From Mesoaciditoga sp. (GTDB taxonomy: Bacteria; Thermotogota; Thermotogae; Mesoaciditogales; Mesoaciditogaceae), in NCBI GenBank assembly GCA_015489955.1, contig WFYR01000114.1, forward strand, positions 61,558 to 125,557: 64,000 nucleotides of DNA, written 5' to 3'. The notes beneath the pieces are model-generated. The model was given only the letters and a program-made list of their open reading frames with translations. It made no database searches and was not told the DNA's origin. Shown in pieces: positions 4,639-33,418 of this stretch (positions are counted from its first letter, which is position 1; each line of letters opens with the position of its first letter). The translations under genes and the position numbers were made by a program.

Positions 4639-6834
4639 TCAAAATACTTTTATCTTCATAATGCGAGAAAACATTTCTATAACGTACAAATTCGAATGGT
4701 GGTACTTGTACAGGATCTTTCCTCCTTCTAAATTCACCTTTTCGCTCGTTCTAAAGAAAAAATAACGCGGAAGATCACAACCATAAGGCAATAAAACGTC
4801 TATCTCATCTTTTTCTCTTTTATAAATTGGAACCTGGGTAAAATAACTTTTAAATATCTCGGCAGCCTCGTAAGCGTAATGATTTTCAAGCCATGGGTAA
4901 TAATTTTTCATCGTGAAAAGGAATTCTTCCATGCTTCTCTTCATCTCTTGCCAACTTTTGTGAAGGGGATTTCTATCTGGGGAAAAGAGATCATCTGGAT
5001 GGAAAAAGTACTGATAGGTTCCAAAGTTCATAACGGCAGAGATGGAATCTTTTAAGAGACGAGATACAGGGTAGTATCCGGCTGTGGTTCTCGGCAATAT
5101 GACCGTACCATCGATTATTCCGTATTCACCAAATGTTCCGGTACTATCGTATGAAGTGCCAACTAATTTCAAAGAGGGAAAAACACTTTTAAGAGCCTTT
5201 AATCCTTCTTCATCTATCATGTTATTTGGAGCTATAAAACTTACCGGCCTGTAATCGTTACCAGACACCACTTTCATGAAAGTGGCCAGAGCTTTATATG
5301 CGTTTTTCAAATTCGAAAAAGTCCAGTTTCTGGAAATCGGAGATTGGTGATTGTAACCATGAAGCCCCAAATTGTATCCATCTTTTTGAACACTTTTCAT
5401 CTCAAGAAGTGGATACGGTGTAAGAAGAAAGGCAGAAAAATCGTAAGGCCATTTCTTTTTTCCATTGTAACTGGTAACAACGGCGGTGGTGTACTTCAAA
5501 TTCATTTCTTTTCCTATCTTTTCTATATCTTTCCACCAGATATTGTAGTAAAAATCCCCATCCGTTACATCTCCAAATTCCTTTGTTATCATCTCTCTCT
5601 TTATTCCATAAGAGGGAAGTGGAAAATCGTCTATGAAAACAGTATAGGAATTTACCACAGACTGAATCGAGTTCCTCACGCTCGCCATGAGAACTTGAAG
5701 AAAAAGTCCCCTTAAAGATTTATCCTTACTCATCTTTACAGGGTAAAAGATGAGTTTTCCTTTTCCAATATTCAAGGACCAAACTAATGGTATTTTCTTC
5801 TCTGAAGACCAAATCAACACTCGGGAGTTCTTATAAGGCTTAACAACGCTTAAGGTTGTCGAAATTGGCATGTGGAAATCTGGTGGCAATGGAAAAACGT
5901 CCTGACTCACATCGGCAGATTTAACATAAATTTCTTCGCTGCCGCTCCCCAAAATCATCACCACTCCACCGGAAGAAATGTAATTCATCAACAACGAGCT
6001 TTTAATCGGTAATTTACCATTCACTTCTACAACCGCCATGTAGCGTTCAACGTAATCAACTGGAACGCTAGAAATATCGTAAGGGAGTAAAGCGTAATCC
6101 AAAGATCTTTCGATATTTTCGTCCTTTCCCATTAGAAGTATTCTATTTTGCATTTTTAAGCTTCCAATTATAAAAGCGGAAATGAGTTTTGAAAAGTCCA
6201 AAACAGCGTTTCCGCTTGAATCGAAGATGAAATTGAAGAGAGCAATGCCACCATTTGTTCCAAGAGTGATAAGAGGGTAAGTTTTTCCATCAACTTGCGC
6301 GCTTTCTATAACATCGACATTCTTTGAAAAAACGGTGTAGAGTTCCAAGCCTCGTTTTCCGTAATCTGGTGTGTGATGAATGTATTCTCGATCAAATTTC
6401 AAGTTCTCAATTTTTGCCTCTTTCCAACCACCCCTGTAAGAAATTCCCAAGAAGTTGTAAACTGCGTTTAATTTTGATAGAGAAACAAGCTTTCCGCTTT
6501 CGTCTTTAGAAGCTCCTATGTTGTTTATAATGAAAAGCTTTCCACCCTTCATCAGGAAAAATGACAATTTTTTAAGGTACTCTTCTGGATTTTTCATTCT
6601 TGAAGAATAGTAACAACTCACAACAAAATTGTATCCTTTCAAAGACAATTTGGTGGCTTCCACATCAACAAGTTTGTAATTTTCGTTATCAGCCTTAAGT
6701 ACTGGCACAATGTAATTTTTCAGAATAGAAAGGCCATAACCATTCTCAGAGCCTTTGTACAACAAAAGTGTGTTAGAAAAAGCGCTGATGAAAAAAGATG
6801 CCAACAGAACAAGAAAAAGAATTTTCGTCTTCAT
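4639..6834 (-). CDS. pelA: PelA deacetylase part: secreted Rossmann-like plus polysaccharide deacetylase protein (DUF2194-like)
   Basis: The protein of about 731 residues has an N-terminal signal peptide, then amidotransferase/Rossmann-like alpha-beta regions up to about residue 390. The deacetylase domain follows: the catalytic Asp pair lies in IDDFP (residues 401-405) and the metal histidines in HGYNH (492-496). This corresponds to the middle and C-terminal parts of Pseudomonas PelA, which removes acetyl groups from the galactosamine-rich Pel polymer. The GH114 part of PelA is encoded by the separate upstream gene, as in Gram-positive pel clusters. I start at ATG 6834 because the GTG at 6846 overlaps the ribosome site; the GGGGAG sits about 11 bases upstream of the ATG. 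Metal-dependent activity is inferred from motifs. Confidence 0.82.
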   Translation of the reverse strand: MKTKILFLVLLASFFISAFSNTLLLYKGSENGYGLSILKNYIVPVLKADNENYKLVDVEATKLSLKGYNFVVSCYYSSRMKNPEEYLKKLSFFLMKGGKLFIINNIGASKDESGKLVSLSKLNAVYNFLGISYRGGWKEAKIENLKFDREYIHHTPDYGKRGLELYTVFSKNVDVIESAQVDGKTYPLITLGTNGGIALFNFIFDSSGNAVLDFSKLISAFIIGSLKMQNRILLMGKDENIERSLDYALLPYDISSVPVDYVERYMAVVEVNGKLPIKSSLLMNYISSGGVVMILGSGSEEIYVKSADVSQDVFPLPPDFHMPISTTLSVVKPYKNSRVLIWSSEKKIPLVWSLNIGKGKLIFYPVKMSKDKSLRGLFLQVLMASVRNSIQSVVNSYTVFIDDFPLPSYGIKREMITKEFGDVTDGDFYYNIWWKDIEKIGKEMNLKYTTAVVTSYNGKKKWPYDFSAFLLTPYPLLEMKSVQKDGYNLGLHGYNHQSPISRNWTFSNLKNAYKALATFMKVVSGNDYRPVSFIAPNNMIDEEGLKALKSVFPSLKLVGTSYDSTGTFGEYGIIDGTVILPRTTAGYYPVSRLLKDSISAVMNFGTYQYFFHPDDLFSPDRNPLHKSWQEMKRSMEEFLFTMKNYYPWLENHYAYEAAEIFKSYFTQVPIYKREKDEIDVLLPYGCDLPRYFFFRTSEKVNLEGGKILYKYHHSNLYVIEMFSRIMKIKVF

Positions 6835-28436: not shown

Positions 28437-28502
28437 TTGAAAGAGCTTAAGTGCGAAAAAAAAGTACGCACCAAAAAAGTACAAATAAAAGCAAAAAGCC
28501 AA

Positions 28503-28535
28503 CCAAGTGCGAACAGATTACTCGCACTTGGTTTT
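28503..28535 (+). terminator. Rho-independent terminator after carboxypeptidase gene
   Basis: A perfect ten base-pair stem (CCAAGTGCGA 28503-28512 with TCGCACTTGG 28522-28531) is followed by TTTT. A weaker hairpin, GTGCG/CGCAC, lies just upstream at 28451-28471. Together they close the gltX-to-carboxypeptidase operon. Confidence 0.85.
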
Positions 28536-28599: not shown

Positions 28600-28615
28600 T
28601 GGCACGCTTTTTGCT
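28600..28615 (+). promoter_or_regulatory. Sigma-54 (RpoN) type -24/-12 promoter
   Basis: The sequence TGGCACG, four bases, TTGCT matches the full sigma-54 consensus, with exactly ten bases between the GG (28601-28602) and the GC (28613-28614). Transcription would start near 28626, about 42 bases before the SPW-protein start. No -10/-35 sigma-A pair is obvious here. No rpoN or activator gene is in the window. Confidence 0.6.
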
Positions 28616-28667
28616 TAAACAAGGTGCGAGAAAGTTCTTGAAAATAAAATTTGAGGAGGTGTTTCAA

Positions 28668-28991
28668 ATGTCTTGGAAAGGTTGGGTTGCACTTATTCTG
28701 GGTATCTGGTTTGTAGTTGCGGCTTTCATTCCTGGAATGCTTGGAATTGGAAACCTCGTCAACGATTTGATCGTGGGTATCGTACTTGCAATCGTTGGAT
28801 TCATGATGATACCATCTGGTTCTGCATGGCAAGGCTGGATCATAGGTCTTATCGGTGGTGTGTGGATGATAATCGCGGCATTTATACCGCAGATTACGCA
28901 CAGCTACACCATCAACATGACCAACGATTTAGTCGTAGGCATATTGGTTCTCATAATTGCCCTTTTCGAAAGATCAAAGAAAAAAGCTTAA
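28668..28991 (+). CDS. SPW-repeat small integral membrane protein
   Basis: The protein of 107 residues consists of four hydrophobic helices arranged as two repeats. The repeats share W-x-x-x-(I/L)-x-x-G-x-W-x-(V/I)-(V/I)-A-A-F-I-P (GIWFVVAAFIPG near residues 12-23 and GVWMIIAAFIPQ near 61-72). This is the SPW repeat layout, whose biochemical role is not established. Start ATG 28668 has GAGGAGGTG seven bases upstream, so the longer reading frame from 28599 is rejected. It is monocistronic, between a sigma-54-type promoter and a terminator, which suggests inducible expression, perhaps in membrane stress. Confidence 0.8.
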   Translation: MSWKGWVALILGIWFVVAAFIPGMLGIGNLVNDLIVGIVLAIVGFMMIPSGSAWQGWIIGLIGGVWMIIAAFIPQITHSYTINMTNDLVVGILVLIIALFERSKKKA

Positions 28992-29014
28992 TATCAAAAA
29001 TGCTGATTTTTTGA

Positions 29015-29039
29015 AAGGCTGGTGCATACCAGCCTTTTT
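29015..29039 (+). terminator. Terminator of the SPW-repeat gene
   Basis: A perfect nine base-pair stem (AAGGCTGGT 29015-29023 with ACCAGCCTT 29028-29036), a GCAT loop and a run of five T close the SPW transcript. Confidence 0.85.
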
Positions 29040-29344: not shown

Positions 29345-30319
29345 ATGGCAAGTATAAAAGATGTTGCCAAAGAGGCGAGAGTTTCAATTGCAACAGTTTC
29401 TCGAGTTTACAACAATCCAGAAATTGTAAGCAAAAAGACAAAAGAAAAAGTTTATTCCGTCGCTAAAAGATTGGGTTACACACCGAATTTTTTGGCGCAA
29501 AACTTGAAAAAGAGCGTGGTGGGCACTATTATCGCCGCGATTCCTGATATGTCTAACACTTTTTTCATAGACATAGTGCTTGGCATTCAAGATTACGCTG
29601 AATCAAGAGGATACAACGTTTTAATGGGAAGGTTCGACCCGGAAAAATTTAACATAAGTAAGTACGTTAAGATCGTTAAATCTAAAGCTGCAGATGGCAT
29701 CGTTTTAGCTACTGGTCACAACAGATATTACGAGACTGTTGCCGAAGCGGAAGATGTTCCCATAGTTACAATAGAAGAAGAATTCATGTCTAAACCACAC
29801 ATATATGTGGACAATTTTGAGGCGGTAAGAAAGGTAATAGATTATCTTCTCTCAAAAGGGAGAAAGAGGATGGCCTTTCTTGGCTACAAAACGGAAATTG
29901 AACGCGCCAAAGCCTTCGAATTGGTTATGAAAGAGTATGGTTTAGAATACGACAAAAAAATAACGTGGAAGTGTGATGAGAGAGAAGAAGAAATCCCGGC
30001 TCAAACAAAAGAGTACGTTGATCTTTTGATGAAAAAAGAACTCCCGGAGGCAATTGTGTGCGCTTCTGATTTGTTGGCAGCCGGTACGATAAAATGGTTG
30101 GCAAAAAAAGGAGTTAGAATCCCCGAGGATGTTGCGGTTACAGGCTTTGACAACGTAGAAATAGCCGCCATATTCAACCCTGGAATAACAACCGTTGAAC
30201 AACCAAGAAAAAGCATGGGACAAGAGGCCGCTCGTATGCTTATAAACATGATCGAAGGTCATGAAATAGCCAAGAAGATCACCTTTCAAACGAAAATTGT
30301 GATAAGAGAGTCAGCGTAA
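29345..30319 (+). CDS. LacI-family transcriptional regulator of the adjacent sugar transporter
   Basis: The protein of 324 residues has a LacI helix-turn-helix at the N-terminus (IKDVAKEARVSIATVSRVYN) with hinge region up to about residue 58. A periplasmic-binding-protein-like effector domain follows, with DNFEAVRKVIDYLLSKG and VTGFDNVEIAAIFNPG. It should bind a sugar and control the ABC transporter genes directly downstream. Start ATG 29345 has a GGAAG site. A short hairpin separates it from the solute-binding protein gene. The ligand cannot be predicted. Confidence 0.92.
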   Translation: MASIKDVAKEARVSIATVSRVYNNPEIVSKKTKEKVYSVAKRLGYTPNFLAQNLKKSVVGTIIAAIPDMSNTFFIDIVLGIQDYAESRGYNVLMGRFDPEKFNISKYVKIVKSKAADGIVLATGHNRYYETVAEAEDVPIVTIEEEFMSKPHIYVDNFEAVRKVIDYLLSKGRKRMAFLGYKTEIERAKAFELVMKEYGLEYDKKITWKCDEREEEIPAQTKEYVDLLMKKELPEAIVCASDLLAAGTIKWLAKKGVRIPEDVAVTGFDNVEIAAIFNPGITTVEQPRKSMGQEAARMLINMIEGHEIAKKITFQTKIVIRESA

Positions 30320-30326
30320 CGATATC

Positions 30327-30346
30327 AAAGGCCCAGTGGGCTTTTT
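30327..30346 (+). terminator. Short terminator after the LacI gene
   Basis: An interrupted hairpin (AAAG-GCCC with GGGC-TTT, one bulged base) followed by a T run lies just after the LacI stop. It is short and probably leaky, allowing some read-through into the transporter genes. Confidence 0.5.
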
Positions 30347-30369
30347 AAAAATCAAAGGGAGGGATCAAC

Positions 30370-31611
30370 GTGAAGAAAAGTGTTCTTTTGGTACTTGCAA
30401 TGATAGCGGTGTTAGTATTCGCTTCTTTTGCAACTACCATCGTAATGACGGCGGGTGCTGTTGGACGAGAGTACCAAGTCCTTCAACAGCAGATAAAGGT
30501 TTTTGAAAAAGAGAATCCCGGCATAAAAGTTGTTTTAATGCCCATGCCAAATTCTTCAACCGATCGTTACAATTTGTACGTAACTTACCTGAGTGCGGGA
30601 ATGCCACAACCAGATGTTTTGATGTTAGACGTTATTTGGCCTCCGGCGTTTGCGAACTTCCTCGTGAATTTGAATCCATACTTCAGTAAAGACGAATTAA
30701 AGGATTTCTTTCCGGGTGCCATAAGGGCAGATACCTACAACGGAAAATTGGTAGCTGCACCGTGGTTTATAGATGCAGGACTTCTCTACTACCGAAAAGA
30801 TCTTCTCAAAAAATACGGCTTTGAGCCACCAAAAACGTGGGATGAACTTATACACGAAGCACAGGTTATATCTCAAAAAGAGGGAATAAAAGGCTTTGTA
30901 TGGCAAGGCGCTGCCTATGAAGGTTTAACGTGCGATTTCATGGAATACGTCCATTCTTACGGAGGAGCCATTTTAAACGATAAAGGACAGGTCGTTTCTG
31001 ATTCTCCAATGGTCAAAAAAGCCCTTCAAACGATGGTAGATATGATATACAAATACAAAATTAGCCCCGTTGGTGTTACAACGTACATGGAAGAAGAAAC
31101 AAGGCATATATTCCAAAATGGTGATGCGGTATTCATGAGAAATTGGCCTTATTGTTGGCCACTGCTTAACGGAAAAGATTCAAAAGTTGCCGGAAAAGTT
31201 GGAGTCGAACCTCTTCCAGAAGGAACTGGCTTCGCAGGTGTTCACCATTCCGCAACCCTTGGTGGTTGGCAGCTTGGAATAAATAAAAATAGCGAACATA
31301 TAGCGGCGGCCGTGAAGCTTATTAAATTCTTGACTTCACCACAGCAAGAAGCTTACAAGGCTATCAATGCGGGGCAGAATCCATCAAGATTATCCGTTTA
31401 CAACAACCCAGCCATCATCAAAGCAAATCCATTCTACAAATCCCTCTGGCCGGTTTTCAAAAATGCAGAACCAAGGCCAAAATCTCCCATATACGCCCAA
31501 ATTTCCGAAATACTTTATACCAACGTCAACGCAGCGCTTACAAAACAGTTAACCGTCGATCAAGCCGTTGCTAAAATCACAAAACAACTTAAAGATCTAC
31601 TTGGACAATAA
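30370..31611 (+). CDS. ABC transporter extracellular sugar-binding protein
   Basis: The protein of 413 residues has a signal peptide (about 1-22) and the fold of family 1 solute-binding proteins. Visible patterns are TIVMTAGAVGREYQVLQQQI, the cluster PQPDVLMLDVIWPPAF, and AAVKLIKFLTSPQQEAY near the C-terminus. It resembles trehalose/maltose-type binding proteins and should deliver a sugar or oligosaccharide to the two permeases downstream. Start GTG 30370 has GGGAGG upstream. There is no lipobox, so it is probably periplasmic. A terminator after the gene suggests it is made in excess over the permeases. Confidence 0.92.
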   Translation: MKKSVLLVLAMIAVLVFASFATTIVMTAGAVGREYQVLQQQIKVFEKENPGIKVVLMPMPNSSTDRYNLYVTYLSAGMPQPDVLMLDVIWPPAFANFLVNLNPYFSKDELKDFFPGAIRADTYNGKLVAAPWFIDAGLLYYRKDLLKKYGFEPPKTWDELIHEAQVISQKEGIKGFVWQGAAYEGLTCDFMEYVHSYGGAILNDKGQVVSDSPMVKKALQTMVDMIYKYKISPVGVTTYMEEETRHIFQNGDAVFMRNWPYCWPLLNGKDSKVAGKVGVEPLPEGTGFAGVHHSATLGGWQLGINKNSEHIAAAVKLIKFLTSPQQEAYKAINAGQNPSRLSVYNNPAIIKANPFYKSLWPVFKNAEPRPKSPIYAQISEILYTNVNAALTKQLTVDQAVAKITKQLKDLLGQ

Positions 31612-31616
31612 CGATG

Positions 31617-31646
31617 AAGAAGCGGGTTCTACCCGCTTCTTTGTTT
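31617..31646 (+). terminator. Intra-operon terminator between binding protein and permease genes
   Basis: A perfect nine base-pair stem (GAAGCGGGT 31619-31627 with ACCCGCTTC 31631-31639) is followed by TTTGTTT. It lies within a transporter operon, as often seen where binding protein must exceed permease. Confidence 0.75.
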
Positions 31647-31671
31647 ATTAAATTTGCGAAGGGAGGACGAA

Positions 31672-32574
31672 ATGTTTTCCAGAAAAGACCCCTTGCATCG
31701 CAGTGATCCAATTTACGCAGCTGCTTTTATAATTCCAACTCTTGCAGTTATAGCTTTTATAGCTTTTTGGCCTTTAGGACAAACTCTCTACAACAGCTTT
31801 TTTAGGTTTGCCTTGATGTATCCACAAAGCAAAGTTTTTGTTGGTGTATCCAATTACGGAAAACTATTTCACGATCCACGTTTTTTAAACGATCTGTGGA
31901 ACACGATTCGTTTCACAATTTGGTCCGTTGGTATAGAAACGATCTTAGGTATACTCATTGCTTTGATGTTGAACAAAGAATTCAAATTGAGGGGCTTTGT
32001 TAGGGCGGCGGTACTTATTCCCTGGGCAATTCCAACCGTGGTTTCTTCACAGATGTGGAGATGGATGTACAACGACAACTATGGAATAGTAAACACCCTA
32101 CTTATGGAATTTCACATCGTGAAAAATCCAATAGTGTGGTTAGGTTTTCCATCTACCTCCATGCCGGCAATAATAAGCGTTGACGTGTGGAAAACAACTC
32201 CTTTTATGATCCTTCTGATATTGGCAGGTCTTCAAATGATTCCAAAAGAGCTCTATGAAGCTGCTAGAATAGACGGTGCCAACGCGTGGCAAAGATTCTG
32301 GTCAGTAACGTTTCCAATAATACGTCCCACGCTGGGAATCGCTCTTATATTCAGAACTTTGGATGCCATGAGGGTTTTTGACATAGTTTATGTTATGACA
32401 AAAGGAGCTGCCAATACCGAAACTATTTCCGTTTACAATCAATGGGTACTCTTCACAAAAGGATTCATAGCTCCATATTTTGGCTATGGAAGCGCTATAT
32501 CGGTAACCATTTTTCTAATCATAAGCGCTTTCGCGTTTTTGTACGTCAAAATGATGAAGATCAAACTTGACTGA
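31672..32574 (+). CDS. Sugar ABC transporter permease (MalF type)
   Basis: The protein of 300 residues has six predicted TM helices and the EAA loop typical of the ATPase contact (KELYEAARIDGANAWQRFW). It belongs to the MalF/UgpA family of inner-membrane permeases. Start ATG 31672 has GGGAGG six bases upstream; the TTG at 31654 overlaps that site. It pairs with the next gene. Confidence 0.93.
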   Translation: MFSRKDPLHRSDPIYAAAFIIPTLAVIAFIAFWPLGQTLYNSFFRFALMYPQSKVFVGVSNYGKLFHDPRFLNDLWNTIRFTIWSVGIETILGILIALMLNKEFKLRGFVRAAVLIPWAIPTVVSSQMWRWMYNDNYGIVNTLLMEFHIVKNPIVWLGFPSTSMPAIISVDVWKTTPFMILLILAGLQMIPKELYEAARIDGANAWQRFWSVTFPIIRPTLGIALIFRTLDAMRVFDIVYVMTKGAANTETISVYNQWVLFTKGFIAPYFGYGSAISVTIFLIISAFAFLYVKMMKIKLD

Positions 32575-32587
32575 GGTGTTTGAATTT

Positions 32588-33418
32588 ATGAAAAGAAAAA
32601 AAATAAGGAAAATATTTTTCTACATTGGAGTTATCGTTGTTTTGGTTTACTTTCTCTTTCCATTTTACTGGGCGGTTGTCTCTTCTTTGAGGATACCCTC
32701 AGAATTATTTTCATCGCACCAAAGTCTATTTCCCCTTAAAATACAATTTAAAAGCTACGTTCAAGTTTTCACGGAGCGTCCTTTTGCTCGTAATATTCTA
32801 AACAGTACCATAGTTGCAGGCGCGGCCACTTTGCTTTGTCTGGCAATAGGATCTTTAACTGGTTACGCGATAGCTCGTTTGAAATTCGCAGGAAAAGTTG
32901 TGGTTATGCTGTTCATACTATCTGTAAGCATGTTTCCACAAGTATCAATTCTCGGAGCGCTCTTTCAAATTCTCAGATCGGCAAAGCTTATAAATACTTA
33001 TCCCGGTCTCATAATACCGTACATAGCGCTTACAATTCCTTTAACTGTTTGGACACTCCAGAATTTTTTCAGAGAGATGCCAAAAGAATTGGAAGAAGCG
33101 GCCTACATAGACGGAAGCGGAAAATTTTCTACGTTTTGGAGAATAGTGCTTCCACTTTCGGCACCCGGATTAGTGGCAACGGGACTTTTAACGTTTATAT
33201 TCTCCTGGAACGAATTTCTGTTCGCCTTAACGTTTGAACAACTCCCGCAGATGTACACTGTTCCGGTGGCAATTGCGATGTTTACCGGATATTACATTGT
33301 GCCTTGGGGACAGATAATGGCAGCTTCTGTTATAGTAACGGTGCCTCTCGTCGTGTTAGTGCTTGTCTTTCAAAATAAAATCATATCTGGTATGACGGCC
33401 GGTTCTGTGAAAGGCTAA
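32588..33418 (+). CDS. Sugar ABC transporter permease (MalG type)
   Basis: The protein of 276 residues has about six TM helices and the EAA loop (KELEEAAYIDGSGKFSTFW), placing it in the MalG/UgpE permease family. It forms the membrane channel with the MalF-type partner. Start ATG 32588 is chosen because GAGGTG lies nine bases upstream; the TTG at 32567 lies before that site. No ATPase gene follows; the next gene is convergent. The transporter probably borrows a shared MsmX/MalK-type ATPase encoded elsewhere. Confidence 0.93.
   Translation: MKRKKIRKIFFYIGVIVVLVYFLFPFYWAVVSSLRIPSELFSSHQSLFPLKIQFKSYVQVFTERPFARNILNSTIVAGAATLLCLAIGSLTGYAIARLKFAGKVVVMLFILSVSMFPQVSILGALFQILRSAKLINTYPGLIIPYIALTIPLTVWTLQNFFREMPKELEEAAYIDGSGKFSTFWRIVLPLSAPGLVATGLLTFIFSWNEFLFALTFEQLPQMYTVPVAIAMFTGYYIVPWGQIMAASVIVTVPLVVLVLVFQNKIISGMTAGSVKG

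Follow-up and report, generated by a model that had tools for sequence, protein, structure and literature searches.

A conserved sigma-54 promoter and a predicted two-component control circuit for an SPW-repeat membrane protein gene in the Mesoaciditogales

INTRODUCTION

Members of the SPW repeat family (PF03779) are small membrane proteins built from two helix-pair repeats. The structure of the family has been modeled with no function given (PMC8078820), the phrase "SPW repeat" was absent from the open-access literature that we searched, and nothing on the regulation or function of these proteins was found there. A gene of this family lies in a 64,000-nucleotide stretch of a Mesoaciditoga sp. 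genome (contig WFYR01000114.1, positions 61,558 to 125,557), here called the window, where a sequence-only reading had placed a full-consensus sigma-54 promoter in front of it. This raises the question of whether that promoter is genuine and, if so, which activator would work it and in response to what. We addressed this by comparing genomes across the order Mesoaciditogales, the phylum Thermotogota, and SPW loci of other phyla. The source genome is a 120-contig draft, 88% complete, and most of the genomes compared are metagenome assembled.

RESULTS AND DISCUSSION

The SPW gene and its promoter

The gene (28668 to 28991, forward strand) encodes a 107-aa SPW-repeat protein with four predicted transmembrane helices and the two helix-pair repeats of its family. 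It matches PF03779 with an E value of 9e-12, and its score of 45.7 bits exceeds the gathering cutoff of 31.5. An AlphaFold2 model (mean pLDDT, 85) also has four helices, in agreement with the original description of the protein; a fold search with this model detected nothing significant, either in the PDB or among viral models. The ribosome-binding site AGGAGGTG (28654 to 28661, forward strand) contains a GGAGGTG that the orthologues share, and orthologues are present in all 10 genomes of the order.

The proposed promoter, TGGCACG-CTTT-TTGCT (28600 to 28615, forward strand), can be read directly in the sequence. Its GG (28601 to 28602) and GC (28613 to 28614) are separated by exactly 10 nucleotides within a TGGCAC-N5-TTGCW context, as in a sigma-54 promoter, and its end is 52 nt from the ATG at 28668; the start of transcription is predicted near 28626. 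No other match in the window has fewer than two mismatches to the promoter pattern, and the whole 1.77-Mb source genome holds only four exact matches. With up to two mismatches allowed, the window total of seven matches is at chance level (5.9 expected).

Conservation was more telling. A -24/-12 element precedes the SPW gene in 9 of the 10 genomes, in all four genera of the order, at 38 to 59 nt upstream of the ATG, and another occurs before the SPW orthologues of a second family of the phylum. In an alignment of the order, the two conserved blocks carry on average 1.86 and 1.80 bits per column, compared to 0.76 for the spacer and 0.88 to 0.89 for the flanks. A scan of the 10 genomes for further promoters with TGGCAYR-N4-TTGCW returned 70 matches, against 9 for a reversed control pattern. 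Conservation and this control together rule out a chance motif. One might still suppose that the -24/-12 match is fortuitous and that the gene is read by the main sigma factor, given that the genome has four exact matches and that some matches in the order fall inside coding frames. This is extremely improbable: the promoter keeps its place in nine genomes while flanks and spacer drift, paired dyads lie upstream of it, and rpoN and activators are encoded. At the level of sequence comparison, the predicted promoter is thus confirmed as real.

RpoN and its activators

The sequence-only reading had predicted that the source genome carries rpoN and an enhancer-binding activator, and both were found. 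The encoded RpoN carries each of the three sigma-54 domains and scores 345 bits with TIGR02395 (cutoff, 277), and there are five true or strong sigma-54 activators. The accompanying remark that Thermotoga itself is not known for RpoN holds for T. maritima, whose score for the RpoN DNA-binding domain is below the Pfam cutoff, but does not extend to the phylum, since 65 of 103 Thermotogota genomes are above it. Earlier reports of sigma-54 exist for some Thermotogae, beginning in 2011 (PMC3162934), and for Kosmotoga olearia (PMC5674127). With these reports and the 65 genomes, the presence of rpoN is no surprise.

Other sigma-54 promoters were also observed. The one before fabF, the gene for a beta-ketoacyl synthase, is conserved in 9 of the 10 genomes of the order (C63:9037-9052 in the source genome; loci L165, L174, L177, L180, L188, L194, L200, L205, and L211), and these promoters have a dyad of another kind upstream, related to ATCCAAAATTTGGAT. 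In several genomes, a sigma-54 promoter precedes an apparent isoaspartyl dipeptidase gene beside a class D activator (C96:7226-7241 in the source genome, L168; also L190, L195, L212, and L215). Three genomes have one before an apparent PLP-dependent aminotransferase gene (C94:34297-34312 in the source genome, L167; also L197 and L201).

Paired dyads upstream of the promoter

Upstream of the SPW promoter are two copies of a 21-bp dyad with the consensus TGCGAA-N7-TTCGCA, a distal one (GTGCGAAAAAAAAGTACGCAC, 28451 to 28471) and a proximal one (GTGCGAACAGATTACTCGCAC, 28507 to 28527), which we regard as probable upstream activator sites. The pair, 55 to 57 bp apart, is found in eight of the nine promoter-bearing genomes of the order; the ninth, G004, has one clear dyad instead of two. 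Among 4,500 dinucleotide shuffles, none gave a pair and 2.9% gave a single dyad, and a search for dyads that assumed no motif beforehand recovered the same element. Genome-wide, dyads of the TGCGAA type are near background except at SPW genes and at contig-end sites in G005 (C50) and G004 (C39). The possibility that the dyad is a general sigma-54 upstream site was ruled out by the different dyad of the fabF promoters.

Second dyad sites were noted at the ends of contigs in G005 (C50, L240), G002 (C13, L242), and G004 (C39, L241), with a sigma-54 promoter as well in G005 and G002. These sites look like duplicated SPW genes.

The proximal dyad lies within a hairpin stem (28501 to 28533) that had been taken, together with the hairpin 3' of the SPW gene, as evidence that the gene is bounded by strong terminators. 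The downstream hairpin (29013 to 29038, forward strand) is indeed terminator-like. The upstream one is better read as an activator site, because it contains the proximal member of the conserved pair, although it may also terminate transcription. That the dyads are mere terminators of the upstream gene, and no activator sites at all, is very unlikely. The proximal dyad does form a strong hairpin, in several genomes with T runs after it, but such a role would not account for two copies at near-constant spacing, nor for their presence in G007, which has a divergent upstream gene. Similar dyads, equally placed with respect to the promoter, also stand before SPW genes of other phyla, and in G008 the dyads were lost together with a regulator, as described below.

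The distances between dyad and promoter cluster at 59 to 63, 70 to 76, and 82 to 88 bp. We make no claim of helical phasing from these values, as the best-fitting periods were at least 11.7 and the set of distant loci alone gave a P value of 0.12.

A candidate activator

The likely activator of the SPW promoter, judging from its distribution and gene linkage, is an NtrC-type response regulator of the class C family, a monophyletic group with members in 9 of the order's 10 genomes. The source-genome member (453 aa, C51:21768-23129) has the NtrC-type architecture of a receiver, an AAA+ domain with GAFTGA, and a Fis-type helix-turn-helix (Response_reg, 95 bits; Sigma54_activat, 232 bits; HTH_8, 19.7, just under the cutoff of 22). 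The adjoining gene (C51:19813-21771) encodes a 652-aa histidine kinase with a multi-transmembrane N terminus followed by HisKA and HATPase domains.

In the sister genus, the SPW gene is directly followed by a gene for a multi-transmembrane histidine kinase of ~650 aa and then by that for the class C regulator (G001, G002, and G004); in G003, the three are only near-adjacent, with two genes inserted behind SPW. In the other genera, including that of the source genome, the pair lies directly upstream of dnaK, an arrangement seen in three genera of the order. The sensor region of the kinase occurs in 9 of 103 Thermotogota genomes, and these are exactly the nine of the order that have the promoter and dyads.

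The 10th genome, G008, lacks all of these. Its SPW gene is intact (84% identity) and rpoN is retained, but a search for the class C kinase and regulator found neither as an intact gene. Upstream of dnaK, homology to the sister genomes breaks off within the final codons of the regulator gene, leaving a deletion remnant in mid-contig, and upstream of SPW both dyads and the -24 element have been deleted, along with most of the -12 element. The fabF promoter of this genome is intact, with its own different dyad. The regulator and its presumed sites were thus lost together while other sites were kept, although this co-loss is seen in a single genome. The SPW gene of G008 can thus be viewed as one that survived the loss of its whole control circuit.

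The main contradiction to the proposed circuit comes from family f4, represented by G012 and G013 (71% and 90% complete). Here, the SPW gene is preceded by the promoter and one TGCGAA dyad (L146 and L145), yet a search for a class C kinase or regulator, which included inspection of L263, found none. The presence of promoter and dyad with no detectable regulator lends some weight to an alternative in which the promoter is real but is activated by the class A NtrC-type regulator (C48 in the source genome) and not by the dnaK-linked class C protein, since every one of the 10 genomes of the order has class A, as does f4. We consider this unlikely on several grounds. G008 retains class A although the SPW dyads and promoter are gone. 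The fabF promoters carry the other dyad, and in G012 the genes for a class A kinase and regulator immediately precede fabF. Finally, class A shows neither the linkage to SPW that class C has in the sister genus nor its grouping with SPW-linked regulators from other phyla.

Similar modules in other phyla

SPW relatives accompanied by a kinase and an NtrC-type regulator were found in Calditrichia, Melioribacteraceae, Bacteroidales, KSB1, and deltaproteobacterial genomes by a scan that used two peptide patterns and was not exhaustive. In most of these distant loci, the kinase-regulator pair is directly upstream of SPW. The kinases are ~705 to 715 aa long, with HisKA_7TM in the four examined, and the helix-turn-helix of the regulators carries RR[QL][IL]QN. 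Members of the kinase family and of the regulator family were each seen in 22 of the 39 SPW loci examined, Mesoaciditogaceae included, and a tree places the distant regulators and class C on the same side of a branch (support, 94/93). The four SPW proteins from distant modules that were tested scored 49.6 to 56.1 bits, above the PF03779 cutoff.

The upstream regions of these loci have dyads of the form TGNGAAAT-N3-ATTTCNCA and a -24-like TGGCAC element; the -12 part is often TTGAT or TTGTT, which is off consensus. Dyads were present in 25 of 28 such loci, compared to 0 of 18 other SPW loci, a grouping that is partly post hoc, and in 1.1% of shuffles. With weaker dyads admitted or a longer stretch considered, L293, L295, and L334 have dyad pairs too. 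The SPW genes checked in other Thermotogota families (11 genes), WOR-3, and Aminicenantes were without these elements. A Bacteroidales metagenome-assembled genome (L309, ~5091 to 6312) has three tandem SPW genes behind a kinase-regulator pair, with a -24-like site and no clear dyad before the first.

It is conceivable, though we put this forward tentatively and rate it somewhat below an even chance, that a single ancient membrane-stress switch, made up of kinase, regulator, paired dyads, sigma-54 promoter, and SPW, is shared by Thermotogota, Calditrichota, Bacteroidota, KSB1, and deltaproteobacteria, with SPW as its sole conserved effector and a phage-shock-like role played by other parts.

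Proposed mechanism and relation to known systems

Taken together, the genomic evidence makes it quite probable that a sigma-54-dependent two-component system is dedicated to switching on the SPW gene. In the mechanism we propose, the membrane histidine kinase (652 aa) would phosphorylate its partner NtrC-family response regulator, which would then bind its predicted sites, the dyads at 28451 to 28471 and 28507 to 28527, and activate the RNA polymerase-sigma-54 waiting at 28600 to 28615. SPW would thus be made only when the kinase is active. Since the kinase and regulator genes directly follow SPW in the sister genus, positive feedback is possible there, if they are cotranscribed with it.

Such a circuit would work like known NtrC-type systems. 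NtrBC, AtoSC, and ZraSR also combine a HisKA/HATPase kinase, a regulator with receiver, GAFTGA AAA+ domain, and Fis-type helix-turn-helix, and dyads upstream of a -24/-12 promoter; unlike in these systems, the target here is an SPW membrane protein. The class C regulator stays below the NCBIfam cutoffs for AtoC (432 bits against 714) and NtrC (406 against 559), and among the matches listed, the cutoffs of all named NCBIfam equivalogs are above the scores of the circuit proteins. PrsK/PrsR of the PEP-CTERM/exosortase system also pairs a multi-transmembrane kinase with an NtrC-type regulator and has RpoN-dependent targets (PMC9850573). SPW differs from those targets, and neither the kinase (TIGR02916, 79 bits against 300) nor the regulator (TIGR02915, 409 against 502.6) reaches the respective cutoff.

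The phage-shock (Psp) response involves sigma-54, PspF, and small membrane proteins. By analogy, a sigma-54 activator would here too switch on a small membrane protein, possibly under membrane stress. The class C regulator misses the PspF cutoff (TIGR02974, 258 bits against 443.6) and, unlike PspF, has a receiver domain, and SPW has no significant fold match.

As to the role of the circuit, the neighboring genes make a response to membrane or envelope stress the most likely one. Recurring neighbors of SPW include patatin-like phospholipases (eight loci) and outer-membrane efflux proteins (seven), along with cyclopropane-fatty-acid-synthase-like CMAS proteins, the MlaE permease, DUF308 membrane proteins, and universal stress proteins (three loci each). 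These neighbors, the adjacency of the pair to dnaK, and the sigma-54 target fabF, which also has a connection to membrane lipids, support a stress role and do not establish it.

The tie of one SPW branch, across phyla, to a sensor kinase, a regulator, and DNA sites offers a first handle on when these proteins are made and on what they respond to, and the deep-branching Mesoaciditogales gain a defined sigma-54 circuit. Simple tests are possible in Athalassotoga saccharophila, which is culturable and has the SPW, kinase, and regulator genes adjacent to one another; in strain NAS-01, the regulator gene is at L172:8585-9919.

A few further observations concern the surroundings of SPW genes. Directly 3' of the gene in the window (29345 to 33418) are genes for a LacI-type regulator and then an apparent sugar-binding protein and two ABC permeases, which have no apparent connection to the sigma-54 element. 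SPW paralogues in the sister genus (L052, L053, L054, and L055) lie close behind another gene, with neither promoter nor dyads, and a further SPW copy in G002 (L061 and L063) is interrupted by stops.
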